Below are positions 27,805 to 44,727 of a stretch of DNA of 64,000 bases, in pieces (within the stretch, counting starts at the first letter, position 1; each line of letters opens with the position of its first letter). This stretch comes from Sphingosinicella sp. LHD-64 (lineage in GTDB: Bacteria > Pseudomonadota > Alphaproteobacteria > Sphingomonadales > Sphingomonadaceae). The notes under the pieces were generated by a model that saw nothing but the letters and a program-made list of their open reading frames with translations, searched no databases and was not told the origin of the DNA. The position numbers and the translations under genes are program-made. The stretch lies in the NCBI RefSeq assembly GCF_031157375.1, contig NZ_JAVIFV010000001.1:992001-1056000 (forward strand). The letters run 5' to 3'.

Positions 27805-28815
27805 CTAGGCCGCCTTCGAAGCCGGCTGACTCTGCAGCCAGGCCATCTGGTTGCGCAGACGCGCGCCGACCTTCTCGATCGGCTGCTCGAGATCGGCGTC
27901 GTACATCTGCTGGTATTTGGGCTTGCCGGCCTGGTTCTCCTCGATCCACTGATTGGCGAACTTGCCGTTGCGGATGTCGGCCAGCACCTCGCGCATCCGC
28001 GCCCTGGTCTCGTGGTTGATGACGCGCGGGCCGGAGACGAAGTCGCCGTACTTGGCCGTCTCCGAGACGAAGTGCAGCATCTTGGCGAGGCCGCCCTCGT
28101 ACATCAGGTCGACGATCAGCTTCAGCTCGTGCAGGCACTCGAAATAGGCGACCTCGGGCTTGTAGCCCGCCTCGACCAGGGTCTGGAAACCGGCGACGAC
28201 CAGCTCGCTCGCGCCGCCGCACAACACCGCCTGCTCGCCGAACAGATCGGTCTCGGTCTCTTCGGCGAACGTCGTCTCGATCGCGCCGCCCTTGGTGCCG
28301 CCGATGCCCTGCGCATAGGCCAGCGCCTTGTCACGGGCATTGCCGCTCGCGTCCTGCTGGACGGCGAACAGGCAGGGGACGCCCCGGCCGATCTCGAACT
28401 CGCGACGGACGAGATCGCCGGGACCCTTCGGCGCGACGAGGACGATGTCGACGTCGCGGCGCGGGTCGATCTCGCCATAGTGGACGGAGAAGCCATGGGC
28501 GACGAGCAAGGCCGCGCCGGGCTGGAGGTTCGGCGCGATCGCCTCGCTATAAGCTTCCTTGTGGCTCATGTCGGGACTGAGCAGCGCCACCAGGCTGGCC
28601 TGCGCTGCCGCCTCGGCCGGGGTGACCGGTGCGAAACCGTCGGCCTTGGCACGCTTCTCCGCGCCGCCGCCGGGGCGGGCGCCGACGACCACGTCGAAGC
28701 CGCTGTCGCGCAGGTTGCGGGCATGGGCCCGGCCCTGGCTGCCATAGCCGATGATCGCGACCTTGCCGCTCAAGGCCGCGGGATTGGCATCGTCGTCCGT
28801 GTAGATCCGTTCCAC
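27805..28815 (-). CDS. ilvC: ketol-acid reductoisomerase (class I)
   Basis: 336 residues. It converts acetolactate to dihydroxyisovalerate with NADPH. The cofactor motif [17 protein letters not shown], the [13 protein letters not shown] block and the [17 protein letters not shown] metal site are typical. The start is GTG 28815 with AAGGAG 7 bases upstream; the alternative TTG at 28833 would translate that ribosome site. It is first in the operon, behind a leader peptide and attenuator; ilvG follows after 3 bases. Confidence 0.97.
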
Positions 28816-28842
28816 CTGGGTTCTCCTTCGCAAAGCACAAAG

Positions 28843-28874
28843 AAAAACCCCCGCTCCGGTGGGGAGCGGGGGTT
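28843..28874 (-). terminator. attenuator terminator before ilvC
   Basis: On the minus strand a perfect 12-bp stem (AACCCCCGCTCC with GGAGCGGGGGTT, loop CCACC) runs directly into TTTTTC. It lies between the leader peptide stop (28907) and ilvC (28815). A second hairpin, GGTCCT/AGGACC at 28885-28905, starts just after the leader stop. Confidence 0.9.
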
Positions 28875-28906
28875 CCGTGTTTCTGGTCCTATCTCGTCCA
28901 GGACCG

Positions 28907-29020
28907 TCAGCCGGTTACCGCTCCCATCGGGAAGCTAATAAGTACGATAAGGGTAATAAGGAGCGCGGCGGCCGGGAGGGCCACCGTCAGGGTCTCAACG
29001 CGGATCGCGTTCAGGTTCAC
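28907..29020 (-). CDS. branched-chain amino-acid leader peptide (ilvL-like)
   Basis: A 37-codon open frame from GTG 29020 (GGAG 6 bases upstream). Residues 20-29 read [10 protein letters not shown], a run of Leu, Ile and Val. The control codons are CTC-CTT-ATT-ACC-CTT-ATC-GTA-CTT-ATT: CTT, ATT and GTA are rare in this GC-rich sequence, which strengthens the case for ribosome stalling. Together with the downstream terminator this is a classical transcription attenuator for ilvC-ilvGM-leuABCD. Function is inferred from design and position. Confidence 0.88.
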
Positions 29021-29047
29021 CAAAAGCTCCGTCGAAAAATCGCGCTT

Positions 29048-29075
29048 AGGATACGGACGCGCGGAATCCTGGCAA
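29048..29075 (-). promoter_or_regulatory. candidate promoter of the ilv-leu operon
   Basis: Minus strand TTGCCA (29070-29075), 16-base spacer, TATCCT (29048-29053). Transcription would begin about 20 bases before the leader peptide start. Confidence 0.5.
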
Positions 29076-29128
29076 CCCCAAAAATCGCCCCCGTCCAAAA
29101 TTCCATCGTCCCGATACAGGCCGGATGG

Positions 29129-30811
29129 TTAACAAGCCGTATCCGCCCCGCTCGTCACCGCCCCCTGCGAGGCCGAGCCGACGAGGCGGGCGTATTTGGC
29201 GTAAGCACCTGTGCTTTCACCGGTTTCCCGAAGCGGCGCCGGATCGCGCGAGGCGAGATCCGCGTCGGTTTCGATAACCCGCGCCTCGACGTCGATGACG
29301 ATCCGGTCGCCGGTCTTGAGCCGCGCGATCGGCCCGCCTTTCGCCGCTTCCGGCGCGATATGGCCGACCATGAAGCCGTAGGTCGCGCCCGAGAATCGCC
29401 CGTCGGTGACGAGCGCGACGGTGTCGCCGAGCCCGCGCCCCTGGATCGCGGCGGTGATCGCCAGCATCTCGCGCATGCCGGGGCCGCCGACCGGCCCCTC
29501 GCCGCGGATCACGACGACATCGCCATGGTCGATCTCGCCATGGGTGACCGCGTCGAAACAGGCCTCCTCCCCCTCATAGACCCTGGCCGGCCCTTCGTGC
29601 CGCAGCCGCTCGTGGCCGGCGAGCTTCACCACGCAGCCGTCCGGCGCGATGTTGCCGTAGAGGATGCCGAAACCGCCGCGCGCTTTCCGCGGCCTCTCGG
29701 CGGAGAGGATCACCTCCTGCCCCGGCGTTTCCGCCGCGCCCGCAAACAGCTCGAACAGGCTCCGGCCGGTCACGGTCGGCGTGTCGGTAATGAGCCCGCC
29801 GTCGATCAGCCGCCGGCCGAGCAAGGCCGAGCCACCCGCTTCGCTCATGTCGGGTGCCATGAAGCGGCCGCCGGGCTTCAGGTCGGCGATCACCGGCGTG
29901 GCGCGGCTGACCTCGTCGAACAGGTCGATGTTGAACTGGTCCGAGGGGATTCCCGCTTCCCGCGCGATGGCGAGGAGATGAAGGACGAGATTGGTCGACC
30001 CTGCCGTCGCGGTGCCCGCCACGGCCGCGTTGCGCAGGCTTTCCGGCGTGATCAGGCTGCGCGCATTGCGGCCGGCGTTGAGCGCCTCGACCAGAATGCG
30101 CCCGGCTTCTTCGGCCGCCTTCGGCTTGTCGGGATGGGTCGCCGGGATGTCGTTGAGGCCGGCGGGCGAGAGGCCGAGGAAGGTCATCGCCAGCGCCATC
30201 GTGTTGGCGGTGAACTGGCCGCCGCAGGCGCCTGCGCCCGGGCAGGCCGCCTTCTCGACCGCGAGCAGGCCGGCATCGTCGAGCGTGCCGGCGCTGTGCG
30301 CCCCGATCGCCTCGAACACGTCCTGGATGGTGAGCTTCTTCTCGCCCAGCCGCCCCTGCATGATCGAGCCGCCGTAAAGGATGACGCTCGGCACATCGAG
30401 CCGCGCCGCCGCCATCGCCGCGGCGGGAATGGTCTTGTCGCAGCCGACGATGAACAGCACCGCGTCGAGCGAATGGCCGCGCACCGCGAGCTCGGCCGAA
30501 TCGGCGATGGCCTCGCGGCTCATCAGCGAGGCGCGCATACCGCGCGTGCCCATCGAGATGCCGTCGGTGACGACGATCGTGTTGAAATCGAACGGCGTCG
30601 CCCCCGCTTCGATGATGCCGCGGCGGGCATGTCCGGCAAGGTCGCGCAGGTGCATGTTGCAGGGCGTGACGTTTGACCAGGTGTTGACGATCGCCACCAT
30701 CGGCTTCGCCATCGCTTCGTCGTCGAGCCCGGTGGCGCGCAGCATCGCGCGGGCGGCGGCACGCGCCGGGCCGCCCTTCATCTCGTCGGAAGGCAAATGA
30801 TCTTGGGACAT
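29129..30811 (-). CDS. ilvD: dihydroxy-acid dehydratase
   Basis: 560 residues. It dehydrates the dihydroxy acids of the Val/Ile pathways. Iron-sulfur Cys residues are in [16 protein letters not shown] and [12 protein letters not shown]; the C-terminal [17 protein letters not shown] block is typical. It lies 10 bases after thrC, so it is the last gene of thrA-thrB-thrC-ilvD and would share the Thr/Ile attenuator. ilvC and the other Ile/Val genes follow in a separately attenuated unit. Confidence 0.97.
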
Positions 30812-30821
30812 GTCGGTTTAC

Positions 30822-32114
30822 TCAGGCAGCCGTGGGTTCGTGGTGCGGTTGGAGGGCATGGGCAAGCGCGTCAAGGCTTGCCGGGATGGAGATGCTCGAC
30901 GCGGCGCGATCCAGTATCGCGGCAAGCGCCGGCGGCGGCGCGATCGGCCGGCCGATCAACGGCTCGACGGTTTCCGCGAACTTATAGGGATGCGCCGTCG
31001 CCGCGGCGATCCAAGTGACCTCGTCGCGCAATCGATCGGAGAGCCGCGCATAGGCCTCGGCCGCCGTCGCGCCATGCGGGCACCAAACATAGCCGCTGGT
31101 CTCATATTCGGCGCGGATGCGATCCCGGATCTGATCGTCCGTCACCAGCTCGACGCCGAGCTTGCGCTGCTCGGGCGGCAAAGCGGCGACCCGCTCGAAA
31201 TTGCTCGGCGCACCGACGTCCATCGCATTGGCAATGGTCGCGATTGAAGCGCGCGGCGCGTAGACGCCCGTCGCCTTCCAGTCCGCGAGCGTGCGATTGG
31301 CGTTGGTCGCGAGCAGGATCGGGCGGATCGGAAAGCCCATCGCCCGGGCGTAGAGCGCCGCGAAACCGTGGCCGAGATTGCCGCTCGGGATGATGAAGCC
31401 GACATCCTTGCCAGTTGCCCGCTTCGCCTGGACCGCAGCGTGGGCCAGATAAGCGATCTGCGGCAGCAGACGGCCGATATTGATCGAATTGGCCGAAGTC
31501 AGGTTGTGAGCCTCGGTCAGATCGGCATCGGCGAAGGCGGCCTTCACCAGCCGCTGGCAGTCGTCGAAATCGCCCTCGACCTCCAGCGCCCGCACCGGAT
31601 CGTCCCAACACGAGAGCTGCAGCGCCTGAAACGGCGAGACCCGCCCCTTGGGATAGAGAATCACGGCCCTGACAGCGCTCCGTCCCTCCGCCGCACAACC
31701 GACGGCGCCACCGGTGTCGCCGGAGGTCGCGACCAGCACGGTAAGCGGATCCGCCGGATCGCCGATCCGGTCGAAACAGGCGAGCAGGAAGCGGGCGCCG
31801 AAATCCTTGAAGGCCCCGGTCGGCCCATGGAACAGTTCCAGCGCGTGCAAGCCCGATGCGACCGGGACCAGCGGCGCGGGGAAATCCAGTGCCTCGGCGC
31901 AGATGCTCGGCAATTCCTTCGCGAGCGCATCACCCGCAAAGAACGGCGCGAGGATCGCCGCCGCAAATTCCGACAGCGGCAGATCCGCGTCGATCGCTTG
32001 CGGCATAGTTTCCGGCAGGTAGAGCCCGCCATCCGGCGCGGCGCCGGCGCGGATCGCTGCGCCGATCCCGACCGCCGGTGCCCGCCCGCCCGTGCTGACA
32101 TAGCGCATGCTCAT
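30822..32114 (-). CDS. thrC: threonine synthase
   Basis: 430 residues from ATG 32114, overlapping the thrB stop (ATGA); an ATG two codons later is also possible. A PLP enzyme that makes threonine from O-phosphohomoserine. Lys in PTGAFKDFGARF binds PLP; VATSGDTGGAVG and IPSGNLGHGFA bind the phosphate. Length and motifs fit the enteric ThrC class. Confidence 0.97.
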   Translation of the reverse strand: MSMRYVSTGGRAPAVGIGAAIRAGAAPDGGLYLPETMPQAIDADLPLSEFAAAILAPFFAGDALAKELPSICAEALDFPAPLVPVASGLHALELFHGPTGAFKDFGARFLLACFDRIGDPADPLTVLVATSGDTGGAVGCAAEGRSAVRAVILYPKGRVSPFQALQLSCWDDPVRALEVEGDFDDCQRLVKAAFADADLTEAHNLTSANSINIGRLLPQIAYLAHAAVQAKRATGKDVGFIIPSGNLGHGFAALYARAMGFPIRPILLATNANRTLADWKATGVYAPRASIATIANAMDVGAPSNFERVAALPPEQRKLGVELVTDDQIRDRIRAEYETSGYVWCPHGATAAEAYARLSDRLRDEVTWIAAATAHPYKFAETVEPLIGRPIAPPPALAAILDRAASSISIPASLDALAHALQPHHEPTAA

Positions 32115-33064
32115 GCCGCCGCCGAAACCGGGACGGTGCGCTCCAGCCGCGCGCCCGGCGAATCGACCGGGGCGCGATAGGCGCGCGCGTCGAGGCCGGC
32201 CTCGCGGAACGCCGCGGCCATCGCGGCTTCCACCCGGTCCGCATCGGCGGCGAGCGCCCACGCGAATACCGAAGGCCCCGAGCCCGAGAAGGAGCAGCCG
32301 AGCGCGCCGGCGCCCAGCGCCGCCGCCTTCACCTGCGGCAGCGCCGGCAGCAGATGCTGGCGCTGCGGCTCGACCAGCACATCCTCGAGGCCGGCGCGAA
32401 TGAGGCCCATGTCGTTGCCGACGCAGCCGGCGACGAAGGCCGCGAGCCGCCGCGAATGCTCGACCGCGACGCGCATCGGCACCTCGCCCTTCAGCAGCTT
32501 GCGCGCCGCGCGCGTCTCCACCTTCGCAGAAGGATGAAGCAGCACGGCAACGAGACCGGAGGGGGCGGGCAGGCGCTGGACGAAGTCTGGCTCCTCGCGC
32601 GCGGCGAGGACGAGGCCGCCGAGCAGGCTCGCCATCACATTGTCCCAGGGCGGCGGATCGGAGGACACCCGCTCCCCCTCCAGCGCGAAGGGCAGCAGCT
32701 CCTCATGCGCATAGGGCCGAGGCAGAAGCGCGTTGACCGCGACCGCTGCAGCGACCGCCGAGGCGGCCGATCCACCCATGCCGGCGCTCACCGGCACGCC
32801 CTTGTCGATGTCGAGTCGCACGCCGAAATCGGCGCCCGCCGCGTCGAGAAGCGCCTGCGAGGCGGCGAGCGCGGTGTTGCGCTCGACCTCGGCCGGCAGG
32901 CTGGACACGAGACCGGAGACGGCGCCGAGCCGGACGCCGGGCCGCGCCTCGCGCGCCGCGGTCACGCGGTCGCGGACGGCATCGAAGGCCTGGCCCAGCA
33001 CGTCGAAGCCGACACCGACATTGCCGATGCTCGCCGGCGCGCTCGCCATGGATCGTTCACGCAT
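32111..33064 (-). CDS. thrB: homoserine kinase (GHMP family)
   Basis: 317 residues from ATG 33064, with GAGGAG 7 bases upstream; a GTG at 33079 overlapping the thrA stop is the alternative. It is the GHMP-kinase type (ASIGNVGVGFDVLG, then PVSAGMGGSAASAVAAAVAVN for ATP binding, and GCSFSGSGPSVFAW). It is not the APH-like homoserine kinase common in Alphaproteobacteria. It phosphorylates homoserine for ThrC. Confidence 0.95.
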   Translation of the reverse strand: MRERSMASAPASIGNVGVGFDVLGQAFDAVRDRVTAAREARPGVRLGAVSGLVSSLPAEVERNTALAASQALLDAAGADFGVRLDIDKGVPVSAGMGGSAASAVAAAVAVNALLPRPYAHEELLPFALEGERVSSDPPPWDNVMASLLGGLVLAAREEPDFVQRLPAPSGLVAVLLHPSAKVETRAARKLLKGEVPMRVAVEHSRRLAAFVAGCVGNDMGLIRAGLEDVLVEPQRQHLLPALPQVKAAALGAGALGCSFSGSGPSVFAWALAADADRVEAAMAAAFREAGLDARAYRAPVDSPGARLERTVPVSAAA

Positions 33065-33075
33065 CACGCCGCTCC

Positions 33076-34818
33076 TCACGCGCTGAGCTTCAACGGCGCG
33101 GCCTGCGCCTCGGCGGCAAGCCGCCGCTGCAGGTCCATGACGTCGCCGAACACGGCCGCCGCCGTCGGCCAGCGCCCCGCGCCCTTACCATAGACGGCAT
33201 GGACCCGGCCATCGCCCTGGCGGACCAGGAAGCGGTTCTCCTCGTTGACCGCGCCGGCCAGCGGATGATCCGCCGGCAGCGCCTCGACGCGTACCGAGGC
33301 CTCCACCGAGCCGTCGGCCTTGAGCACGCAGCGCCCGACCTGCTTCAGCACCTTGCCCTCGGCAAGCGCGGCGCGCACCGCTTCGGCATCGACCTGCCGC
33401 AGCGAGTCCTTCGCGATCTTTGACGGCGGCAGCGCGACGCCGAAGGCGCGGCGCACGAGCAGCGACAGCTTGTCGGCCGCATCATGTCCGTCGACGTCGG
33501 TCGAGGGGTCCGCTTCGGCGAAACCCAACCGCTGCGCCTCGGCCACGGCATCATCGAAGGCGACGCCTTGGGCCAATTGGCTCAGCAGGAAATTGCACGT
33601 GCCATTCATCACACTCTCGACGGCGACCACGCCCTCGCCCCGGAGCCGCTCGAGCGTCTCCAGAACCGGCGTCCCGCCGCCCACCGCCGAAGAGTAAGCG
33701 AGGCTCGCCTCGCCCGCTTCGGCGCAGGCATGGAGCGCGTCGTAATGGCCGGCGAGCGCCGCCTTGTTCGCCGTCACGACATGGACGCCGCGTTTCAGCG
33801 CCCTGCACATGATGTCGGCCGGATAGTCGGCGCCGCCGATCGCCTCGACCAGCAGGTCCGGCTCCGCGCGCAGCGCGACGGCGAGATCGTCGGTATAGGC
33901 CTCGTCGCCATAGCGCTCCCGCCCGTCGGGATTGCGGACCAGCACCGGGCCGACCTCGAACAGGTCCGGCCGCTGCTGGAGATAAGACAGCACCCCTGCC
34001 CCGACCGCACCGCAGCCCAGCAGGGCGACGCGCAGCTTCGGGAACTGGAGCGGCACCTCGCGCCGCGCCGGCAGCGCGGCGATCACCGTCGCCTCGTGAT
34101 GGCCGATCGCGGCGATCTCGATCGTGATCCCCTCCGCCCTGGCCGCATCGATCGCCTTGGGCTGGATCAGCCCCTTGCTGGCCCCGGCGGCGAGCTCGTA
34201 GGAGAGCGCGCCGTAGCGCTCGGCATTGGGATGGACCGCCGGATCCTGCGCGTAGACGCCGTCCACATCCTTCAGTAGCCGCACCCGCTTCGAGCCCAGC
34301 CGGCCGGCGAAGAAGACGGCGGACAAATCGGTCCCGCCGCGGCCCAGCGTCACCACGCCATACTCGGCATGGCCCGCGGTGAAGCCCGGCACCACGACCA
34401 CGTCATGATCGCTGAGCTTCGCGTTGACCGCATCGGCGTCGAGGCCGGTCAGGTTGGAATCGAGCGGCGCGCCCTCGGCCACCAGCCCCATCTCGTCGGG
34501 ATCGAGCACCCAGGTGCGTACCCCCATGCGGTTGAGCGCCAGCCCCATCAAAGCCGCCGAATGGAGTTCGCCGACCCGCGCCAGCCGGGCGACGAAGGCG
34601 GGCGCCGGATCGCCGCCGACCCGGTTGGCTTGGGCGAGCAGCGCATCGGTCTCGCCGGCGATCGCGGAAACGACGGCGACGACCTTCTCGCCGTCGCGGA
34701 TGTGGCGGTACACTTCCTGCGCGCAGGTCCGGTAATCGTCCTCGCATTCGAGCACCGAGCTGCCGAATTTGAGGACGCAGAGCTTGCGCTCCGGTTCGCT
34801 TTGATCCTGTCCATCCAT
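33076..34818 (-). CDS. thrA: fused aspartokinase-homoserine dehydrogenase lacking the ACT region
   Basis: 580 residues from ATG 34818. Residues ~12-245 are an aspartokinase catalytic domain (KFGSSV, SAIAGETDALL, TLGRGGTDLSAVFFA, DVDGVYAQDP). Residues ~262-570 are homoserine dehydrogenase (LLGCGAVGAG, TANKAALAGHYDAL, NGTCNFLLSQ, VDGHDAADKL). Enteric ThrA is ~820 residues because two ACT regulatory domains join the halves; here the kinase passes into the dehydrogenase within about 17 residues. Loss of threonine feedback is an inference. The kinase motif is KFGSSV rather than KFGGTS, as in ProB-type kinases. First structural gene behind the Thr/Ile leader. Confidence 0.9.
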   Translation of the reverse strand: MDGQDQSEPERKLCVLKFGSSVLECEDDYRTCAQEVYRHIRDGEKVVAVVSAIAGETDALLAQANRVGGDPAPAFVARLARVGELHSAALMGLALNRMGVRTWVLDPDEMGLVAEGAPLDSNLTGLDADAVNAKLSDHDVVVVPGFTAGHAEYGVVTLGRGGTDLSAVFFAGRLGSKRVRLLKDVDGVYAQDPAVHPNAERYGALSYELAAGASKGLIQPKAIDAARAEGITIEIAAIGHHEATVIAALPARREVPLQFPKLRVALLGCGAVGAGVLSYLQQRPDLFEVGPVLVRNPDGRERYGDEAYTDDLAVALRAEPDLLVEAIGGADYPADIMCRALKRGVHVVTANKAALAGHYDALHACAEAGEASLAYSSAVGGGTPVLETLERLRGEGVVAVESVMNGTCNFLLSQLAQGVAFDDAVAEAQRLGFAEADPSTDVDGHDAADKLSLLVRRAFGVALPPSKIAKDSLRQVDAEAVRAALAEGKVLKQVGRCVLKADGSVEASVRVEALPADHPLAGAVNEENRFLVRQGDGRVHAVYGKGAGRWPTAAAVFGDVMDLQRRLAAEAQAAPLKLSA

Positions 34819-34854
34819 CGTCGTGTCGCTTTCGTGTCCTGGGCGGCAGGCATG

Positions 34855-34887
34855 AAAAAACCCGCTCGCCGGTGTCGGGGAGCGGGT
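34855..34887 (-). terminator. attenuator terminator before thrA
   Basis: Minus strand ACCCGCTC pairs with GAGCGGGT around a 12-base GC-rich loop and is followed by TTTTTTC. It lies between the leader stop (34920) and thrA (34818). Confidence 0.88.
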
Positions 34888-34919
34888 CGGTGAAACTCTC
34901 AGGTTTCTGGGCCTCAAGA

Positions 34920-35042
34920 TCAGCCGCTACCGCCCCGCTTTCGGGTGGTGGTAATGGTAATGATCGTGGTGGCGAGGCGCGCGACAAGGCCCTCGCCGTT
35001 GCCGGCAAGGCCAAGGTCCCGGAACTGTGCAGCCGTCAACAT
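34920..35042 (-). CDS. threonine/isoleucine leader peptide (thrL-like)
   Basis: The peptide ends ...LATTIITITTTRKRGGSG: nine consecutive Thr or Ile codons close to the end, followed by an Arg/Lys/Gly tail, a near copy of the design of enteric ThrL. The start is uncertain: in-frame ATGs at 35060, 35051 and 35042; 35042 (40 residues) has GAGGG about 11 bases upstream. A short hairpin (CCGGCC/GGCCGG) precedes it in the transcript. Stalling at these codons would prevent formation of the following terminator when threonyl- or isoleucyl-tRNA is scarce. Confidence 0.85.
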   Translation of the reverse strand: MLTAAQFRDLGLAGNGEGLVARLATTIITITTTRKRGGSG

Positions 35043-35100
35043 CGGTGCCATTTCCCTCATCGCCGCAAGCCGGCCCGCGTGGCCGGTTCGCTTGCCCTTA

Positions 35101-35130
35101 AGCATGGAGACGAGAACGGCTATCCGTCAA
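35101..35130 (-). promoter_or_regulatory. candidate promoter of the thr-ilvD operon
   Basis: Minus strand TTGACG (35125-35130), 18-base spacer, CATGCT (35101-35106). Its start point would lie upstream of the leader peptide and downstream of the REP-like repeat. Confidence 0.45.
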
Positions 35131-35186
35131 CCGCCTTAATTTTCGGTGTCGGGACGGTTCACGATGATCGCGTGACTGCCGCCTCT

Positions 35187-35278
35187 CGTCATTCCGGCGA
35201 AGGCCGGAATCCACCTTCCTTCAATCCGCTGATCTAGAAGAAGAAAAACTGGATCCCGGCCTTTGCCGGGATGACGAC
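35187..35278. repeat. REP-like palindromic repeat pair
   Basis: Two imperfectly matching palindromes, ATTCCGGC-gaag-GCCGGAAT and ATCCCGGC-cttt-GCCGGGAT, face each other ~40 bases apart, and the outer ends GTCAT/ATGAC pair too. It is of the same kind as those at 46869 and 47762. It separates the thr and proBA operons and could stop transcripts running through. Confidence 0.75.
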
Positions 35279-35351
35279 GGGAGCCTGACGGTTTCGGCAA
35301 GATTCGCACGCTGAGTGGCTAATCTTTGGAAGATCTTCCTACGTCAAATGT

Positions 35352-36593
35352 TCACGGCCGGGTCTGCCCGGCGCCCCGTACAACATATTTGAACGTCGTG
35401 AGCTGTTCCGGGCCGACCGGTCCGCGGGCGTGGAGGCGGCCCGTGGCAATGCCGATTTCGGCGCCGAATCCGAACTCGCCGCCGTCCGCGAACTGGGTCG
35501 AGGCGTTGCGGATGACGATCGCGCTGTCGACTTCTCTGAGGAAGCGTTCGGCGGCCGCATCATCGGCCGCGACGATCGCCTCGGTGTGGCCCGAACCATA
35601 GCGCGCGATGTGCGCCATCGCCGCGTCGAGGCCGTCGACGACGCGCACGGCGAGGATCGGCGCGAGATATTCCCGGCCCCAGTCGTCCGCGTTCGCCGCG
35701 GCCATGTCCGGCACGATTCTCCGCGCCGCATCGTCCCCGCGCAACTCGCAGCCGCCGGCCTGCAAGGCTCCGGCGATGGGGGGCAGTAGAGCAGCGGCCG
35801 CGGCGTGATCGACCAGCAAACATTCGGTCGCGCCGCAGACCGAGGTGCGCCGGAGCTTCGCATTGACGACCACGTCCAGCGCCATCGCCGGGTCGGCCGA
35901 GGCGTGCAGATAGGTGTGGCAGATGCCCTCGAGATGGCCGAGCACCGCGACCCGCGCCTCGCGTTCCACCCGCTCGACCAGCGCCCTGCCGCCGCGCGGG
36001 ATGATGAGGTCGATCACGCCGCCGAGGCCCTGCAGCATCAGCCCGACCGCCGCCCGGTCCTCGGTCGGAACGAGCTGCACACTCGCCGCCGGCAGCCCTG
36101 CCTCGGCGAGACCGGCGGCGATCGCGGCGTGGAGGGCGAGGCAGGTGCCGAGCGCGTCCGATCCGCTGCGCAGGATCACCGCATTGCCGGCGCGCAGACA
36201 GATCGCGGCGGCGTCGGCAGCAACGTTGGGCCGGCTTTCGAAGATCATGCCGATGACGCCGATCGGCGTTGCGACCCGCGCAATGTCGAGCCCGTTGGGC
36301 CGCCGCCAGCGCGCCAGCTCCCGCCCGACCGGATCGGGCAAGCCGGCCACCGCCTCGACGCCGGCGGCGACGCCCTCCAGCCGCCCGGGGTCGAGTCGCA
36401 GGCGATCGACCAGCCCGCTCGCTTTCGCGACATCCTCGGCATTGGCGGCCAGGATCGCTGCGGCTTGCGCACGAATATGCCGGGCGGCGGCCCGAATCGC
36501 CTCGGTCCGCGTCTCGGCGGAAGCATCGCGCAACACGGCCGCCGCAGTCCGCGTGGCGGCGCCCATCGCCAGCATGTCTGTGTCCAGCGTCAT
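35352..36593 (-). CDS. proA: gamma-glutamyl phosphate reductase
   Basis: 413 residues. It reduces glutamyl phosphate to the semialdehyde on the proline route. Motifs: [41 protein letters not shown], and the catalytic Cys in [12 protein letters not shown]. Its ATG overlaps the proB stop (ATGA). Confidence 0.97.
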
Positions 36594-37747
36594 GATCCCA
36601 GCATCACCAGATCGTCGCGATGGATCAACGCGTCCGGCCCCGCATAGCCGAGGCGGGCTTCGATCCCCTTGCTCGACGCCCCGGCGATCGTCCGCACTTC
36701 GTCAGCCGTATAGGCGCAGATGCCGCGCGCGATCTCGGCGCCGGCGAGGGTGCGGACGGTCAGGCAGGAGCCGCGCTCGAACGCGCCCTCGACTGCCGTC
36801 ACGCCGGCCGGAAGCAGGCTCTTGCCGCCGGCCAGCGCCCGCGCCGCGCCATCGTCGACGACGAGTGTGCCCGCCGTCTCCAGCGTGCCGGCGATCCACT
36901 GCTTGTAGGCCCGCGCCGGCGATCCGTGCGCCCCGAACGCAGTGGCCCGGGCGCCTTCGGCCAGCAGCCGGAGCGGATGATGCTCATGCCCGGCCGCGAT
37001 GAGGGTGGCGCAGCCGGCACCGCCCGCGATCCGCGCGGCGACGATCTTGGTGCGCATCCCGCCCGATCCGACCCCGGCCGCGGCAGCCCCGCCGGCATGG
37101 GCCTCGATCGCACCCGTCACATCGGCGACATGCGGGATATGGACGGCCGCGGGATCGTGGCGCGGGTCGCCGGTGTAGAGGCCGTCGACATCGGAGAGCA
37201 GCACCAGCAGATCGGCGCGCAGCATCTGGGCGACGCGTGCCGAGAGCCGGTCATTGTCGCCATAGCGCAGCTCGTCGGTGGCGACGCTGTCATTCTCGTT
37301 GATCACCGGCAGCGCACTCTGGGCGAGCAGCACCTCCATGGTGGCGCGGGCGTTGAGCCAGCGGCGGCGCTTCTCGCTGTCCTCGAGCGTGAGCAGCAGC
37401 TGTGCCGTCGGAACATCGTGCGGCGCCATTGCCGCGTCCCAGGCCTGCATCAGCATCGTCTGACCCGCTGCTGCGGCCGCCTGCTTGTGGTCGAGCCGCG
37501 CCGAGCGCCTGAGCCCGAGCTTCCCCCGCCCCAGTGCCACGGCGCCCGAGGAAACGACGATCACCTGCTTGCCCTCGGCCCTCAGCGCCGCGATGTCCGC
37601 CCCGACGCTCGCCAGCCAGCCCACCCGCGCGGCATCGCCGCTGTCGCCGATCAGCAGCGAGGACCCGATCTTCACGACGATTCGCCGCGCGGCCTTCAGC
37701 AGCCGCGCGGGCTCAGACGCGGCGGCTGTCCCTCGCTCCATCGCCAT
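36590..37747 (-). CDS. proB: glutamate 5-kinase
   Basis: 385 residues from ATG 37747 (GAGG 5 bases upstream); the TTG at 37771 would add the ribosome site. An amino-acid kinase domain ([54 protein letters not shown]) is followed by a C-terminal PUA domain (residues ~295-380), as in full-length ProB. Proline inhibition is expected because the long form is kept. No leader peptide is visible before it, unlike its neighbours. Confidence 0.97.
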
Positions 37748-37794
37748 GCGAACCTCGGTCTGGCGCCGCAACGAACCCGGCGCGGGGGCGGCTC

Positions 37795-37826
37795 TTGACA
37801 GCGTGGGGCGCCCTTGTCAGCCTAAA
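37795..37826 (+). promoter_or_regulatory. possible promoter of the Phe/Tyr-leader aromatic operon
   Basis: TTGACA at 37795-37800 is an ideal -35. The best -10 candidates (CCTAAA at 37821 with a long spacer) are weak. It lies 60 bases upstream of the leader start in the proB-divergent region. Confidence 0.4.
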
Positions 37827-37862
37827 AGCGACGGCGACAGGTCCGTCGGCAGGAGCATCACC

Positions 37863-37952
37863 ATGAGCACAGGGCTTTGCATCCGCACCCCCTCCGCGCT
37901 GGTCGGCCGCTCCTATTTTATCGGCTCGTTTATCGGCCGGTACGCCTATTGA
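37863..37952 (+). CDS. phenylalanine/tyrosine leader peptide
   Basis: A 29-residue frame from ATG 37863 with AGGAG 8 bases upstream. Residues 18-29 read YFIGSFIGRYAY: three Tyr and two Phe codons in the last 12, spelled TAT-TTT-...-TTT-...-TAC-GCC-TAT. It precedes the chorismate mutase-aroA-pheA-aroC-aroB-aroE operon, which supplies Phe and Tyr. A hairpin overlaps the final codons and the stop, so a ribosome at the Tyr codons would occlude it. Confidence 0.8.
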   Translation: MSTGLCIRTPSALVGRSYFIGSFIGRYAY

Positions 37953-37962
37953 GGCGTGCCGG
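37937..37962 (+). promoter_or_regulatory. hairpin spanning the end of the Phe/Tyr leader
   Basis: CCGGTACGCC pairs with GGCGTGCCGG (ten pairs, one G-U) around TATTGA, the loop holding part of the last Tyr codon and the stop. No U-run follows, so it is not a plain intrinsic terminator. A second hairpin (GCTGC...GCAGC, ~38000-38031) lies before the ribosome site of the next gene. Confidence 0.6.
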
Positions 37963-38045
37963 AGACCCGATTCAACCTTCCCGACCATCCGAGCTGATCC
38001 GCTGCCGACGCCCCGAACAGGCCGGGCGCAGCGACGAGGACCGAA

Positions 38046-38753
38046 ATGCCTCAGACCGACACCGATACGCCCGCCGCGGGCGCCCGCGATCTGGCCGAAA
38101 TCCGCGCCGAGATCGACCGAATCGACGATACGTTGCTCGAGTTGATCGAGCGCCGCCTCTCCCACGTCCTCGCTGTCGCCGAGGTGAAGCGCAGCGCCGC
38201 CGCCACCGCCCTGCTGCTCCGCCCGGACCGCGAGGAGGCGGTGCTGAACCGTCTCGCCGACCGCGCCGCGGCGCTGCGCCACGACACGATCGCCGTGCTC
38301 TGGCGCGAGCTGATGGGCGTCAGCCTGCAGGCGCAGCGGCGCACCGAGCTCGTCCTCCACGCCGCGCGCCAGCCGATCCGCGTCACCGACGCGACCCGCC
38401 AGCGTTTCGGCTGCGCCGCGCCGATCGTCATCGCGACCGAGGCGCACGAGGCGCTTGAGGCCGCGCGCTCCCGCGAGGCGATCGCCGTGGTCGAGCTCGA
38501 CGCCCAGAGCCGCTGGTGGGCCGAACTGTTCCAGGACCCCGATCTCGTCATCTTCGACCGGGTGATGGCCGGGGAGGAGACGCTGGCGCTGACCATCGGC
38601 CGGCTCACCGGCGACAGCCTGCTCGGCGGCGTTACCTACCCGATCGTCAGCGACGTGACCCTCCAGCAGCGCACCATCGCCGGCGCGGACATCCGCCCGC
38701 TCGCCGCCTGCGGGCATCTCAGGCTCTGCATCGCCCGGGAGCCGCGGGCATGA
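38046..38753 (+). CDS. chorismate mutase (AroQ class) with unknown C-terminal domain
   Basis: 235 residues. Residues ~15-100 are an AroQ-type helical chorismate mutase ([34 protein letters not shown]). Residues ~105-235 form a second domain starting [26 protein letters not shown], known from other alphaproteobacterial chorismate mutases but without a clear function; it is not an ACT domain. It is the first enzyme gene behind the Phe/Tyr leader, and its stop overlaps the aroA ATG. Confidence 0.88.
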
Positions 38754-40027
38754 CCCTCCAAGCGACGGCCTCGGGACCACTCCGGGGCCGGATCAAGGTC
38801 CCCGGCGACAAGTCGATCTCGCACCGCGCGCTGATCCTCGGCGGGCTGGCCGAGGGCGAGACGCGGATCGAAGGGCTGCTGGAAGGCGACGATGTGCTCG
38901 CCACAGCCGCGGCGGTGCGCGCGCTCGGCGCCGAGGTCGAGCGGACGGGCGAAGGCGCCTGGCGCGTGCGCGGCGGCCCCTGGACCTCGCCCGAAGCGCC
39001 CATCGACTGCGGCAATTCCGGCACCGGCGCGAGGCTGCTGATGGGCGCCGTCGCCGGCCGTCCGATCACTGCCACCTTCACCGGAGACGAGTCGCTGCGC
39101 AGCCGGCCGATGAAGCGGGTGACGGGGCCATTGGGCGAGATGGGCACGCGTTTCGAAGGCGGCGACAGGCTGCCGATCACCGTCCATGGCGGCGGGCTCG
39201 GCGGCATCGATTTCGAGAACGCCACCGCGTCGGCGCAGGTCAAATCGGCGATCCTGCTCGCCGGCCTCGGCAGCGCGGCCGATGTGATCGTGCGCGAGCC
39301 GCGCCCCAGCCGCGATCACAGCGAGAACATGCTTGCCGCATTCGGCTGCGAACTGACGCGCGACGGCGGCACCGTCCGGCTCGGCGCGCAGCGTGGCCTC
39401 AGGGGCACCGATGTCGTCGTCCCCGCCGACCCGTCCTCTGCCGCCTTCCCGCTGGTCGCCGGCCTGATCGTTCGGGGATCGGAGGTCACGGTCGAAGGGA
39501 TGCTGGTCAACCCGCTCCGCGCCGGGCTCTATGAAACGCTGATCGAAATGGGCGCAGACCTCAGGATCGAGAACCGCCGGGCCGTCAACGGCGAAGCGGT
39601 GGCGGACCTGACCGCCCGTGCCTCGCGACTGTATGGCGTCACCGTCCCGGCCGATCGCGCGCCCTCGATGATCGATGAATATCCGATCCTGGCCGTCGCA
39701 GCCGCCTTTGCCGAGGGCGAGACCGTGATGCACGGGCTCGGCGAGTTGCGGGTAAAGGAAAGCGATCGGCTGGCGGCGATCCTCGCCGGCCTCGCCGCCT
39801 GCGGCGTGGATGCTCGCGCCGACGGCGACACGCTGGTCGTCACAGGCGGTGCGCCGGCCGGCGGCGGACTGGTCACCACCCATGGCGATCATCGCATCGC
39901 AATGAGCTTCCTCATGCTCGGCCTCGCGGCACGCGACGCCGCCACCGTCGACGAACCGCACATGATCGCGACCAGCTTTCCCGGCTTCGTGCCGCTGATG
40001 CAGGGCCTGGGAGCGCGGATCGCATGA
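38750..40027 (+). CDS. aroA: 5-enolpyruvylshikimate-3-phosphate synthase
   Basis: 425 residues from ATG 38750 (ATGA with the mutase stop). It joins shikimate 3-phosphate and PEP. Motifs: [39 protein letters not shown] and [10 protein letters not shown]. In most Alphaproteobacteria aroA is next to cmk-rpsA; here it sits in an aromatic operon instead. Confidence 0.97.
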
Positions 40028-40575
40028 AGGTCGCCTATCAGGGCGTGCCCGGGGCGTTCAGTTGGGAGGCGTGCCGCACCTTCCTCCCCGAATGGACGCC
40101 AGTCCCCCGCGCCACCTTCGCCAATGTCATCAAGGCGGTACAGGCCGGCGCGGCCGGCCGCGGCATGCTGCCGGTGCGCAATTCCACCGCCGGCCCGGTG
40201 CCGGGCGTCGAGGACCTGATCCGCGAGAGCGGCCTGCTCATCGTCGGCCGCCACCGCCTGCCGATCCGGCTCCACCTGCTCGGCCTGCCGGACGCCGAGT
40301 TGGAAGGCATCGTGCGCGTCACCAGCCATCCGATGGCCCTCGCGCAATGCGTACGCTGGCGGGAGGAGGCCGGTGTGACGGCCGAGGACGCGCCGAACAC
40401 CGCGATGGCGGCCGAGGCTCTGGCCGAATCCGGCGATCCGGCGATCGGCGTCATCGCCTCGGAAGTGGCGGCGGAGGCCTATGGCCTTCGCATCCTCAAG
40501 CGCGATATTCAGGATCGCGAGGACAATGCCACCACCTTCTGCGTGGTCGCGCGCGATGACGGGGAACAGCCGTGA
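40024..40575 (+). CDS. pheA: prephenate dehydratase without ACT domain
   Basis: 183 residues: only the periplasmic-binding-like dehydratase domain ([48 protein letters not shown]). The TTF catalytic motif is present. Usual enzymes are ~280 residues because of an ACT domain (with GALV and ESRP motifs) that gives phenylalanine inhibition; here the protein ends about ten residues after TTFCVV. Coupled to aroA (ATGA) and aroC (GTGA). Confidence 0.93.
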
Positions 40576-41648
40576 GCGTCAACAGCTTCGGACGGGTGCT
40601 GCGCTTTTCGACTTGGGGTGAGAGCCACGGGCCGGCGATCGGCGCCCTCGTTGATGGCTGCCCGCCCGCGCTTACCCTGAGCGAAGCGGACATCCAACCG
40701 TGGCTCGACAAAAGGCGGCCCGGCCAGTCACGCTTCACCACCCAGCGCCGCGAGCCGGACGAGGTGCGCATCCTCTCCGGTACCTTCGAGGGGCGGACGA
40801 CCGGCACGCCGGTCAGCCTGATGATCGACAATGTCGACCAGCGCTCCAAGGACTATTCGGAGGTCAGCCAGGCCTACCGGCCGGGCCATGCCGACTACAC
40901 CTATGACGCCAAATACGGCCTGCGCGACTGGCGCGGAGGCGGGCGCAGCTCGGCGCGCGAGACGGCGGCGCGAGTCGCGGCCGGAGCGGTGGCACGGCTG
41001 ATCATACCAGATGTCAATATAAGTGCCTATGTCGTTGAGATTGGAGGCGATGCTGTCGACCCGATGTCCTTCGACAACGCGGCAATCGACGCCAATCCCT
41101 TTTTCTGTCCGGACCCGATCGCGGCGGCACGCTGGGAGGGGCTGGTCGACAACGCGCGCAAGGCCGGCAGTTCGCTGGGCGCCGTCGTCGAATGCGTCGC
41201 GACCGGTGTTCCCGCCGGCTGGGGTGCCCCGGTCTACGGCAAGCTCGACGCGGATCTCGCGGCAGCGATGATGTCGATCAACGCCGCGAAGGGCGTCGAG
41301 ATCGGCGACGGCTTCGCGGCCGCGCGCCTGTCCGGGGAGGCCAATGCCGACGAGATGCGCGCCGGCCCGGACGGCAGGCCGGTCTTCCTCAGCAACCATG
41401 CCGGCGGCATCCTCGGCGGCATTTCGAGCGGGCAGCCGGTGTTGCTGCGGGTCGCCTTCAAACCGACCTCGTCGATCCTGACGCCGCGGCGGACGATCGA
41501 TCGCGACGGCAACGAGACGGAGATCCTCACGAAAGGGCGCCACGATCCCTGCGTCGGCATTCGCGGCGTGCCGGTGGTCGAGGCGATGATGGCGCTTGTG
41601 CTGGCCGACCACAAACTGCTCCACCGCGCCCAGTGCGGGGACGGATGA
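40572..41648 (+). CDS. aroC: chorismate synthase
   Basis: 358 residues from a GTG that overlaps the pheA stop. FMN-dependent last step of the common aromatic pathway. Signatures: [50 protein letters not shown] and [17 protein letters not shown]. Complete length. Confidence 0.98.
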
Positions 41649-42733
41649 TGCGACGGATCGACGTCGCGCTCGGCGACCGCTCCTATCCGATCCTGATCGA
41701 ATCGGGCCTGCTCGGCCGCGCCGACGAGGTGCTCGGACCTTTCGTGCGCGGCGACCGGATCGTGGTCGTGACCGACGAGAATGTCTGGGCCGCCCGAGGC
41801 GCAAAGCTCGATGCCGGCGCGGAGATCGTGCCGATCGTCCTGCCCGCTGGCGAGGCGACCAAGAGCTGGGGTCAGCTTGCAGCTTTGCTCGACAAGCTGT
41901 TGGAACTAGCTGTCGAACGCTCCGACCATATCGTCGCTTTCGGCGGCGGTGTGATCGGCGATCTGGTCGGTTTCGCCGCCGCGATCCTGAAGCGCGGCTG
42001 TGGCTTCGTGCAGATCCCGACCACCCTGCTCGCCCAGGTCGACAGTTCGGTCGGCGGCAAGACCGCGATCAATGTCCCCGCCGGCAAGAACCTCGTCGGC
42101 GCTTTCCACCAGCCGTCGCTGGTGCTGATCGACCCCGATTGCCTCGACACGCTACCGCCGCGCGAGGTGCGCGCCGGCTATGCCGAGGTGGTGAAATACG
42201 GCCTGATCGGCGACCCCGGTTTCTTCGACTGGTGCGAGGCGAACGGCGCGGCCCTGCTCGCCGGCGACGCCGCGGCGCGCACCCAAGCCATCGCCGTCAG
42301 CGTCGCGGCCAAGGCGGCCATCGTCGGCGAGGACGAACGCGAGACCAGCGGGCGTCGCGCTTTGCTCAATCTCGGCCATACCTTCGGCCATGCGTTGGAG
42401 GCGGAAACCGGATTCTCGGACCGGCTGCTCCATGGCGAGGGCGTGGCGGCCGGCATGGCCCTCGCCTTCCGCTTCTCCGCCGAACGCGGGCTGTGCCCGC
42501 CCGAAGATGCCGACCGGACGGCGAATGTGCTGGCCGAAGCCGGGCTGCCGACCACGCTCGCCGGGGCCGGAGTGGCAGCCGACGGCGCGCGGCTGACCGC
42601 GCACATGCTCCACGACAAGAAGGCGTCGGGCGGCACCCTGCCCTTCATCCTCGCGCGCGGCATCGGCCGGGCGTTTGTCGACAAGAGTGTCGACCTCGCC
42701 GACGTCGCGGCCTTCCTCGACCGGCAGCCATGA
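41645..42733 (+). CDS. aroB: 3-dehydroquinate synthase
   Basis: 362 residues from ATG 41645, within the aroC stop (ATGA). It cyclises DAHP to dehydroquinate with NAD and a metal. Motifs: [46 protein letters not shown], and the metal residues in [12 protein letters not shown] and [11 protein letters not shown]. Unlike the frequent aroK-aroB pairing, there is no shikimate kinase beside it. Confidence 0.97.
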
Positions 42734-43515
42734 AGCCCTGGGCCGAGGTGATCGGCGATCCGGTCGCCCAGTCCCGCTCGCCCGCCATCCACGGCGCCTG
42801 GCTGGCCGAAGCGCGGATCGACGCCGCCTATCACGCGACGCAGGTGAAGCCGGACGAACTGGCCGACTTCTTCGCCAGCCGCCGCGACAACCCGTTCTGG
42901 CGCGGCTGCAACGTGACCGCGCCGCTGAAGCAGGCGGTCGTACCTTTTCTCAACCATCTCGACCCGGCGGTGGAGCGGATCGGCGCGGTGAATTGCATCG
43001 TTCCCGGAACAGCTGGCCTCACCGGCTACAACACCGATGTGGACGGCGTGTTCGCGGCGCTGGAAGGCGTCGACCTTCGGGGCGAGATTGCGACGATGAT
43101 CGGCTCCGGCGGCGCGGCTCGCGCCGGTTTCTACGCTCTGACGGAGTTTGGCGCGCAGGTGCGCATTCTCGCGCGCAGTCCCGACAAGGCGCGAGCGCTG
43201 GGCAACGTCGACACCTTCCCCTTCGATGGGGCATATGAGGCGATGGCCGGCGCGGCGGCGATCGTGAACGCCTCCACGCTCGGCATGGCCCAGGCCGATC
43301 CCATGCCCGACGACCTGCTGGCCGCGTTGGACGCCGCCGCGCCCGGCGCACTCGTCTTCGACATGGTCTACCACCCCGAGGAAACCGCCCTCCTCGCCGC
43401 CGCCCGCGCCCGCGGGCTTCGCACCGTCGGCGGCCTCGTCATGCTGGAGGGCCAGGGCCGGCGCGCCTTCCGGCTGTTCTTCGGTGGATTGACGCCGTCG
43501 GGTGAGGCCGCCTAA
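42730..43515 (+). CDS. aroE: shikimate 5-dehydrogenase
   Basis: 261 residues. It reduces 3-dehydroshikimate with NADPH. Substrate-binding [11 protein letters not shown], the catalytic Lys in [10 protein letters not shown] (commonly NVTIPHK), NTDVDG and the cofactor loop GSGGAARA are visible. Its ATG overlaps the aroB stop. Its 3' end contains the candidate promoter of the next, Trp-controlled unit. Confidence 0.93.
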
Positions 43516-43517
43516 AC
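43489..43517 (+). promoter_or_regulatory. candidate promoter of the Trp-attenuated operon
   Basis: TTGACG (43489-43494), 17-base spacer, CTAAAC (43512-43517), overlapping the aroE stop codon. A start point seven bases on would fall at or one base before the leader ATG, so the leader may be translated from a nearly leaderless RNA. Confidence 0.45.
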
Positions 43518-43524
43518 AGGATCG

Positions 43525-43626
43525 ATGACCGACGGGTTTTCCCTGCCGACCTCCTCGCACGCGGCCGCATGGTGGCGCTGGCAGGCGATATGCGCGCCCG
43601 TCTGGCGATGGTCGAGCTCGCTCTAG
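43525..43626 (+). CDS. tryptophan leader peptide (trpL-like)
   Basis: A 33-residue frame with five Trp: residues 16-19 are WWRW and 27-29 are WRW, ending WSSSL. Trp is the rarest residue, and five in 14 positions is far above chance. It is 10 bases after aroE and followed at once by a terminator, then DAHP synthase, trpE and trpG. This is a textbook trp attenuator; the first cluster of Trp codons would be the stalling site. Confidence 0.92.
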   Translation: MTDGFSLPTSSHAAAWWRWQAICAPVWRWSSSL

Positions 43627-43657
43627 GCGAGACTCCCCTTCAAACAGACCCGACGGG

Positions 43658-43682
43658 CCCGCCTTCTGGCGGGTCTTTTTTT
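43658..43682 (+). terminator. trp attenuator terminator
   Basis: CCCGCC pairs with GGCGGG around TTCT and runs into TCTTTTTTT. An alternative pairing, AGACCCG (43646-43652) with CGGGTCT (43670-43676), shares the 3' arm and could compete with it. Confidence 0.9.
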
Positions 43683-43710: not shown

Positions 43711-44727
43711 ATGATCATCGTCCTCAAGCCCGACGCCCCGGCCGAAACCGCCGACGCTCTGCTCAAACAGATTGCCGACAAGGGCCTGCAACCCCTTCAT
43801 TTGCCTGGCACGGAGCGTGTCGTGCTCGGCGCGCTCGGCGACGAGCGGGTGCTCGCCGAGCTGCGGCTGGAAAGCCATCCGCATGTCGAGTCGGTGAAGC
43901 CGATCCTCCAGCCCTACAAACTGGTCAGCCGCGAGCTGCACCCGCACGACACGATCGTGAAGATCGGCAATCTCGCCATCGGCGGGCGCGGCTTCGCCGT
44001 CATCGCCGGCCCCTGCGCGGTCGAGACGCCCGAGCAGATGCGCAATACCGCCGAGGCGGTGAAGGCCGCGGGCGCGCAGGCGCTGCGGGCCGGCGCCTAC
44101 AAGCCGCGCACCAGCCCCTACGGCTTTCGCGGCCACGGCCCGGAGGGGCTGAAGATCCTGCGCGAGGTCGGCGACGAACTCGGCCTGCCGGTCGTCACCG
44201 AGGTGATGGACACCGCTGACGTCGACATCGTCGCCGAACATGCCGACGCGCTCCAGATCGGCGCGCGCAACATGCAGAATTTCGCGCTGCTCCGCGTGGT
44301 CGGGCGGGCGGGCAAGCCGGTGCTGCTGAAGCGCGGGCTCTCCGCCAAGATCGAGGAACTGCTGCTGGCGGCCGAATATCTCCTCGCTGAGGGCAACGAC
44401 CAGGTCGTGCTCTGCGAGCGCGGCATCCGCACCTTCGAGACCGCGACCCGCAACACGCTCGATCTCAACGCCATCCCCTATATCAAGCAGAAGACCCATC
44501 TGCCGGTGGTCGTCGATCCCAGCCACGGCACCGGCATCCGCGACCTCGTCACGCCGATGGCGCTCGCGGCGGCCGCCTGCGGGGCGGATGGCATCCTCGT
44601 CGAGGTCCACGAGAACCCGGCCGCCGCGCTCTCCGACGGCGCCCAGTCGCTCTATCCCGACCAGTTCGAGGATCTGATGGGGCAGCTCCGCCGCGTCGCC
44701 ACCGCCGTCGGCCGGGAGGTCGCATGA
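43711..44727 (+). CDS. aroF: 3-deoxy-7-phosphoheptulonate (DAHP) synthase, type I-beta
   Basis: 338 residues from ATG 43711. First step of the aromatic pathway (PEP + erythrose 4-phosphate). Residues 1-~70 are the ferredoxin-like regulatory domain of the Thermotoga-type enzyme. The barrel shows [34 protein letters not shown] and [14 protein letters not shown]. Alphaproteobacteria mostly use the unrelated type II enzyme, so this copy is unusual here. Attenuation by Trp codons upstream makes it the Trp-controlled isozyme by context. Confidence 0.94.

Follow-up and report, generated by a model that had tools for sequence, protein, structure and literature searches.

Attenuation by threonine is best known from the Enterobacteria, where thrL of Escherichia coli is the leader of the Thr operon and a Phe leader stands before pheA and pheST. 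Among the Alphaproteobacteria, Caulobacter ilvBN has a branched-chain leader, and in translational attenuation of the ermC/ermB type it is stalling within a leader open reading frame (ORF) that frees the start region of the next gene. A leader before ilvB in Alphaproteobacteria is likewise cited from Vitreschak 2004 in the available text of PMC1273637. Here we describe four short frames within a stretch of 64,000 nucleotides (nt) of Sphingosinicella sp. LHD-64 (contig NZ_JAVIFV010000001.1, positions 992,001 to 1,056,000; hereafter the window, from a genome of 3.9 Mb), each placed before an operon for the amino acids that its codons name: Leu/Ile/Val, Thr/Ile, Phe/Tyr and Trp. Each frame is probably a leader peptide gene that reports tRNA charging, three of them as classical attenuators and the Phe/Tyr one in another mode. 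The comparison set includes 26 genomes of the genus, and no published account of these four leaders was found in the open literature searched.

Threonine, branched-chain and tryptophan leaders

On the minus strand, the Thr/Ile leader ORF (34920..35042; peptide end ARLATTIITITTTRKRGGSG) precedes thrA-thrB-thrC-ilvD and the Leu/Ile/Val leader ORF (28907..29020; GTG start, 37 codons) precedes ilvC-ilvB-ilvH-leuA. On the plus strand, the Phe/Tyr leader ORF (37863..37952; MSTGLCIRTPSALVGRSYFIGSFIGRYAY) lies before the chorismate mutase gene and the Trp leader ORF (43525..43626; MTDGFSLPTSSHAAAWWRWQAICAPVWRWSSSL) before aroG, which encodes DAHP (3-deoxy-D-arabino-heptulosonate 7-phosphate) synthase, followed by trpE and an ORF read as trpG. 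An earlier note on this DNA, made from its letters alone, had proposed these four frames, each before an operon for the matching amino acids, and three perfect hairpins with T-runs behind them. We confirm the frames at these coordinates from the sequence, and both gene identification and orthologue conservation bear out the match with the operons. The three hairpins do carry T-runs: before thrA (34855..34888, minus strand; GACCCGCTCCCC...GGCGAGCGGGTT), before ilvC (28843..28876, minus strand) and before aroG (about 43647..43682, plus strand; core GGCCCGCC..GGCGGGTC); not all are perfect, since the Thr stem has one C-C mismatch. Conservation in relatives, which the same note had named as a check, speaks for the leaders, frames and control codons being kept in 23/24 Thr, 10/10 Leu/Ile/Val, 19/19 Trp and 16/18 Phe/Tyr cases.

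The Thr terminator is present in all 13 thrA orthologues of the genus (at least 65% identity, window copy included), at 10/10 Maricaulis loci and at L047, a homologue from a different family of the same order; for the four weaker homologues of thrA, L048-L051, no leader of this type was found. In every one of the 24 terminator-bearing loci a frame rich in Thr, Ile and Met, picked by script as the richest in these three residues, ends 23-33 nt before the terminator. Thr and Ile serve as control residues in 23 of these leaders, L046 having Met only, and the control regions of the 24 leaders (312 residues) hold 131 Thr, 50 Ile and 45 Met. The leader probably reads Thr and Ile, and probably Met too, the end products of homoserine. 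Within the terminator 98.3% of pair cells are formed and 7 cells have changes in both partners (0 of 500 shuffles). Inside the leader ORF, just before its stop codon, lies the strand GGGGCGG (34930..34936, minus strand), whose register is that of the ilvC leader strand. It can pair with the terminator's CCGCTCC, and this complementarity stands above shuffles in 22/24 loci (mean z -1.38).

The Met-only leader belongs to one relative, G009, in which Thr and Ile are gone and Met is kept (AAMMMMAAMRMRGGAG), and whose thrA is followed by other genes, not thrBC; it reads as a Thr leader turned Met leader. Full-length matches of the Thr covariance model were also opened at 9 loci in distant genomes, all but one of which resemble unrelated terminators or repeats. 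The remaining locus, L160 in a genome of another family of the class (G375), is a convincing Thr leader (MTYPTTATMTTTATRCGGP) with a terminator before thrS.

At ilvC, a frame rich in Leu, Ile and Val occurs with a terminator in 10/10 readable orthologues (at least 76% identity; locus L089, at a contig end with its upstream region unreadable, is left out of the counts). The strand GGAGCGG (28918..28924, minus strand, inside the leader ORF) keeps the register of its Thr counterpart and can pair with CCGCTCC of the terminator, with complementarity above shuffles in 9/10 loci (mean z -0.86). Covariation lends little support to either of these antiterminators because both arms hardly vary. Second-type ilvC loci provide a natural negative control: the layout was not present in 6/6 of those scanned whole, L096 and L107 having been left out of this control by eye as contig-edge cases with an unsure upstream offset.

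A WWR-containing frame and a terminator stand before aroG in 19/19 readable orthologues (L140, again at a contig end, is left out). Over these 19 sequences, 95.4% of the cells of the terminator and leader helix are paired, and in 3 pairs both sides have changed (9 of 500 shuffles). With DAHP synthase behind it, the Trp leader takes in the entry step of the aromatic pathway as a whole. Outside the window, a second Trp leader (AWRWWWSDPAAARLYRW) and its terminator lie before trpD (L218; G000:C1:1171412-1171540, minus strand), scoring 40.4 bits with the model of the aroG leader. Among the 11 loci opened from matches of this model, the convincing ones were this trpD leader and L192, a Trp leader (MWWWRCSQGPAGVRA) likewise before trpD in G282, which has the same genus number as G375.

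A product-codon ORF, an intrinsic terminator and a competing antiterminator pairing are all found in the Thr, Leu/Ile/Val and Trp leaders, with a weak pairing in the Trp case. Frames, terminators, complementarity and their conservation being observed features, we infer how stalling would work the switch and in which direction it would respond. Where the control codons are read fast, the ribosome would reach the stop codon and cover the antiterminator strand (in the Thr and Leu/Ile/Val leaders GG[GA]GCGG, directly ahead of the stop), the terminator would form and transcription would end; with the ribosome stalled on the control codons, that strand would pair with the 5′ arm of the terminator and transcription would continue.

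Some results weigh against this account. The Trp antiterminator is weak: 15/19 loci lie below shuffles, against 22/24 for Thr and 9/10 for Leu/Ile/Val by the same test, and the median longest run is 4 pairs. Moreover, when both strands of the window were scanned for T-run hairpins preceded by a small ORF, the three leaders were returned among 6 sites with uncorrected composition P values of 5.8e-9 (Thr), 1.6e-4 (Leu/Ile/Val) and 3.1e-4 (Trp), and a chance Trp-rich frame with a hairpin at ~47656 (plus strand) reached P 7.5e-6, which beats the real Leu/Ile/Val and Trp leaders. This look-alike is an ORF encoding WRRAGSTWWW that lies out of frame within the coding ORF 46993-47760 and has a weak hairpin and T-run behind it, so coding DNA rich in G+C can produce such patterns; in the reversed window 3 sites were found (best P 4.3e-4). 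Given these P values and the look-alike, composition alone proves only the Thr leader, and the others rest on conservation. Rfam at gathering scores finds two tRNAs only over the window and no leader family; at E up to 10, the sole leader-family match near any of the four leaders is to Thr_leader (20.3 bits against a gathering score of 55, E 6.2), and it falls on the ilvC leader instead of the Thr leader. Judged from sequence, the Thr, Leu/Ile/Val and Trp leaders are very probably ribosome-mediated transcription attenuators.

Phenylalanine and tyrosine leaders

The Phe/Tyr leader has a product-codon ORF and no intrinsic terminator: in the 10 scanned chorismate mutase loci no T-run terminator was found in the interval from leader to gene, nor was one seen in the window sequence. 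Ribosome-mediated attenuation, proposed in the earlier note for all four leaders, has the expected architecture in the Thr, Leu/Ile/Val and Trp leaders and stops short of this one. Its hairpin core and its frame with Phe and Tyr are nevertheless present in 16/18 genomes of the genus with a chorismate mutase match (second matches L127 and L128 are excluded), and the peptides mostly end in SFxGRYA. The hairpin, H1 (37937..37962, plus strand; CCGGTACGCC / GGCGTGCCGG), encloses the leader stop codon in its loop, as do by reading 14/16 genus copies (the frame runs on in L116 and L126), and no T-run follows it. Over 15 sequences all 149 cells with letters are paired in H1 and two pairs are changed on both sides (L116 is left out of alignment A1). 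Around H1, the codon region pairs with a segment about 40-70 nt further downstream in a second helix, S2; in the window its 5′ arm ATCGGCTCG (37920..37928, plus strand) overlaps the leader codons Ile-Gly-Ser and its 3′ arm CGAGCTGAT lies at 37990..37998 (plus strand). The complementarity of S2 to its own partner beats 5000/5000 within-group permutations (21 sequences, near-duplicates L121, L225 and L227 left out) and four control pairings are unremarkable.

Restriction of this leader to the genus, suggested by a search of the class (1 of 337 genomes), was corrected by a search of the family with the genus model, which matched 11 of 249 genomes in four genera. Absence in these searches is weak evidence because the filters are strict and few candidates per genome are scored. 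Eight matches lie outside the genus, in three other genera, none of them in the model, and 8/8 stand before a chorismate-mutase-like ORF. When 5 of the 8 ORFs were checked by hidden Markov model, all 5 matched chorismate mutase below the NCBIfam curated cut-off, and Pfam CM_2 was above cut-off in the 2/2 that were run. The frames in these genera have richer runs of Phe and Tyr codons, for example FSYYGYYFGSFSGRYA and RFFYYYLGSFSSRYAY.

We consider it very likely that the Phe/Tyr leader controls its operon through its own translation. The control could well, if not quite probably, act at the translation start of chorismate mutase (38028..38048, plus strand; GAGGA, start codon 38046). Stalling on the control codons would open the structure formed by the leader's own codon segment (S2 around H1); in the other genera this segment would also form a stem with the start region of chorismate mutase, and the opened structure would allow more chorismate mutase translation. 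In the other genera, a leader segment reading TTTCGGxTCG or close to it does pair with the start region in the 8 copies, and in folding calculations masking the leader opens that region in 8/8, from a mean of 0.43 to 0.64. In the permutation test, 28 of 5000 permutations were as good as the true pairing of leader and start region. Several results pull the other way. The same masking closes the start region in the window copy (0.45 to 0.29), and among the 16 genus copies it gives 6 up and 4 down. Of five covariation measures for S2 and H1, the number of pairs with both sides changed is unremarkable (52 of 500) and one more gives a weak result (132 of 500); a hairpin just before the chorismate mutase start, seen by eye, failed a permutation test (1421 of 5000). 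The folding results within the genus being mixed, the translational model is kept only as a leading guess. A three-way switch, with pairing between a downstream ACGCC element and the 3′ arm of H1, was seen by eye in some copies only and was dropped.

Tyrosine has a leader of its own outside the window. The phenylalanine 4-hydroxylase gene phhA occurs in 22/26 genomes of the genus (fragments L252 and L253 excluded), and 16 of these 22 loci (L230-L251) have a Tyr-rich frame and a terminator before it, the window genome included (MIASTVYYYRTARAGPI; L243, G000:C3, before 276810-277466, minus strand). Prephenate dehydrogenase (PF02153) is above cut-off in 6/26 genomes of the genus and in 14/14 control genomes, and was not found in the window genome. 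According to the available text of PMC7311316, Dyella, Echinicola and Legionella are known to make tyrosine with phenylalanine hydroxylase. A Tyr leader before phhA where prephenate dehydrogenase is not found is regulatory evidence that the phhA enzyme makes tyrosine there.

Alternative explanations and gene context

Rather than translation of chorismate mutase, the Phe/Tyr leader might control transcription, through a Rho-dependent or non-canonical terminator, with a ribosome-free leader letting Rho load or with H1 and S2 acting on RNA polymerase. The conserved parts are indeed H1 and S2, and the pairing with the start region is weaker and fails in the window copy; against this stand the lack of a T-run behind H1, the empty terminator scan and, in other genera, a start region specifically complementary to the leader codon segment. 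We give this possibility limited credence. That the leader peptides act themselves, in trans or as nascent-chain arrest peptides, instead of through codon-specific stalling, is improbable. The Sinorhizobium Trp leader peptide has a published action in trans (available text of PMC7298713), and the SFxGRYA end of the Phe/Tyr peptides is nearly fixed. However, this fixed end coincides with H1 and third codon positions are kept too, so a constraint on the RNA explains it, and in the Thr, Leu/Ile/Val and Trp leaders residues vary while the codon class stays. Codon-specific stalling is the account we retain for these leaders.

The Thr and Leu/Ile/Val attenuators share one predicted switch layout, for which shared descent is plausible. 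Convergence, given that any antiterminator must copy the 3′ arm of its terminator, falls just short of an even chance. A covariance model built from Thr leaders alone matches 10/10 Leu/Ile/Val leaders along the whole length of the model (34.0-54.0 bits), and the window copy, at 46.9 bits, is its best non-training match in 337 genomes of the class; yet the weaker scores of 34-36 bits are no better than the next best match among the 336 other genomes (36.3 bits). A plain sequence profile gives the Leu/Ile/Val leaders 17.4-35.4 bits, compared with at most 3.4 in 200 shuffles and at most 8.1 in 19 Trp leaders; most of the signal, however, sits at the antiterminator and terminator, and the leader part alone exceeds 10 bits in only 1/10. 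The terminators at 28843-28876 and 34855-34888 share CCCGCTCC...GAGCGGG, and this exact pattern (spacer 3-10 nt), sought on both strands of the genome, occurs at only two sites, the ilvC terminator and one other at 215471 behind a gene, which argues against convergence. The earlier note's proposal that the four leaders form one coordinated regulatory island is one that we find very hard to credit. Of 11 genomes with all four orthologues, only the window genome (leaders within 15 kb) and G006 have them within 18 kb, the pattern that favours an island; G013 has the four operons within 44 kb on one contig. The drafts G003, G004, G005, G014 and G024 have two or three operons together at most, or do not allow a decision. 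In G001, G015 and G020, however, one long contig carries the operons at widely separated places, and these dispersed relatives keep 12/12 leaders with their own operons. Nor do the four make up a complete set, as the note had it, for the trpD and phhA leaders are further leaders of the same kind outside the window. The clustering is gene order and not a regulatory unit: four independent switches of neighbouring operons.

NCBIfam names ilvC (27805..28833, minus strand, start codon provisional), which is the first gene of the Leu/Ile/Val operon; thrA, a fusion of aspartate kinase and homoserine dehydrogenase (33076..34818, minus strand); and ilvD, thrC and thrB, downstream of it on the same strand (29129..33079). 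It also names chorismate mutase, aroA and prephenate dehydratase (pheA), the first three genes of the Phe/Tyr leader operon (38046..43515, plus strand), whose order is chorismate mutase-aroA-pheA-aroC-aroB-aroE, and, behind the Trp leader, the DAHP synthase gene aroG and trpE (43711..46867, plus strand, together with an ORF that reads as trpG). Pfam names leuA, an acetolactate-synthase-like ORF and its ACT-domain partner, and the names aroC, aroB, aroE, leuB and trpG come from reading of the ORFs only.

With Pfam at E up to 1, the ACT domain was not found in ThrA (33076-34818), in which kinase and dehydrogenase domains are seen, nor in the 183-residue prephenate dehydratase PheA (40024-40575). 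Feedback on these enzymes may therefore be reduced, and leader control may stand in for lost enzyme feedback. Joining all this into one picture is tentative, and as a whole it is unlikely to hold: at least six leader switches would derive from a few reused chassis, with control codons rewritten as operons change. One chassis would serve Thr/Ile/Met and Leu/Ile/Val, with a Met sensor in one relative, and one would serve Trp twice (aroG-trpE and trpD). A Tyr leader would act on phenylalanine hydroxylase, the only recognisable tyrosine route in most of the genus, and a Phe/Tyr switch without a terminator would block the chorismate mutase start with its own codon segment, enzyme feedback being partly replaced.

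Comparison with known leaders

The Thr leader resembles that of the Enterobacteria (RF00506, Thr_leader) in its Thr and Ile codons, its antiterminator, its T-run terminator and its operon, which couples a kinase-homoserine dehydrogenase fusion with thrB and thrC. It differs in having no Rfam match above the gathering score and in its Met codons (45 of 312 residues in the control regions), and its operon differs in having ilvD behind thrC on the same strand and a ThrA without a detected ACT domain. The conservation of this putative Thr/Ile/Met leader in Alphaproteobacteria is a new point, as are the layout common to the Thr and Leu/Ile/Val attenuators, the relative with a Met leader in place of the Thr one, and the failure to find an ACT domain in ThrA or PheA. 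The earlier view that no Thr leader was known in that class needs qualifying, since in Sinorhizobium a small ORF rich in Thr and Lys, lying before a gene for aspartate dehydrogenase, is called a possible leader in the available text of PMC10117765. The presence of the Thr/Ile/Met leader across the genus, in Maricaulis and in one genome from a different family of the order widens Thr attenuation beyond the Enterobacteria.

Branched-chain leaders of Alphaproteobacteria and the one described here have Leu, Ile and Val codons and attenuation before ilv genes in common; unlike the ilvB leader, ours stands in front of ilvC, and its switch layout is also that of the Thr leader belonging to the next operon. 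The Rhizobiales Trp attenuator (trpL/peTrpL before trpE; available text of PMC10117765) is similar in its short leader with Trp codons, its terminator and its trp genes, whereas the window leader stands before DAHP synthase and has a similar second copy before trpD.

For the Phe/Tyr leader, the uORFC-13-1 motif before Acholeplasma aroF also places a small ORF with Phe codon(s) upstream of an aromatic gene, there DAHP synthase; in the available text of PMC8632094 that motif is described only from Acholeplasma and from environmental sequences, where it adjoins an intrinsic terminator, whereas ours lies before chorismate mutase and has none. The Phe leader of Enterobacteria likewise has Phe codons before the chorismate mutase/prephenate dehydratase step, and the window leader differs from it in combining Tyr with Phe codons, in lacking a T-run terminator and in its covarying S2 with H1 inside. 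Compared with ermC/ermB, the signal would be an amino acid, not a drug, and the role of blocking strand would fall to the codon segment itself, as predicted by folding only, in other genera. The Phe/Tyr leader is a testable amino-acid-responsive leader without a terminator, and the shared chassis with one codon switch, from Thr/Ile to Met, offers a natural experiment on sensor evolution. Set beside the known leaders, the group departs from them in a Phe/Tyr member that lacks the terminator and in a chassis common to its Thr and Leu/Ile/Val members.

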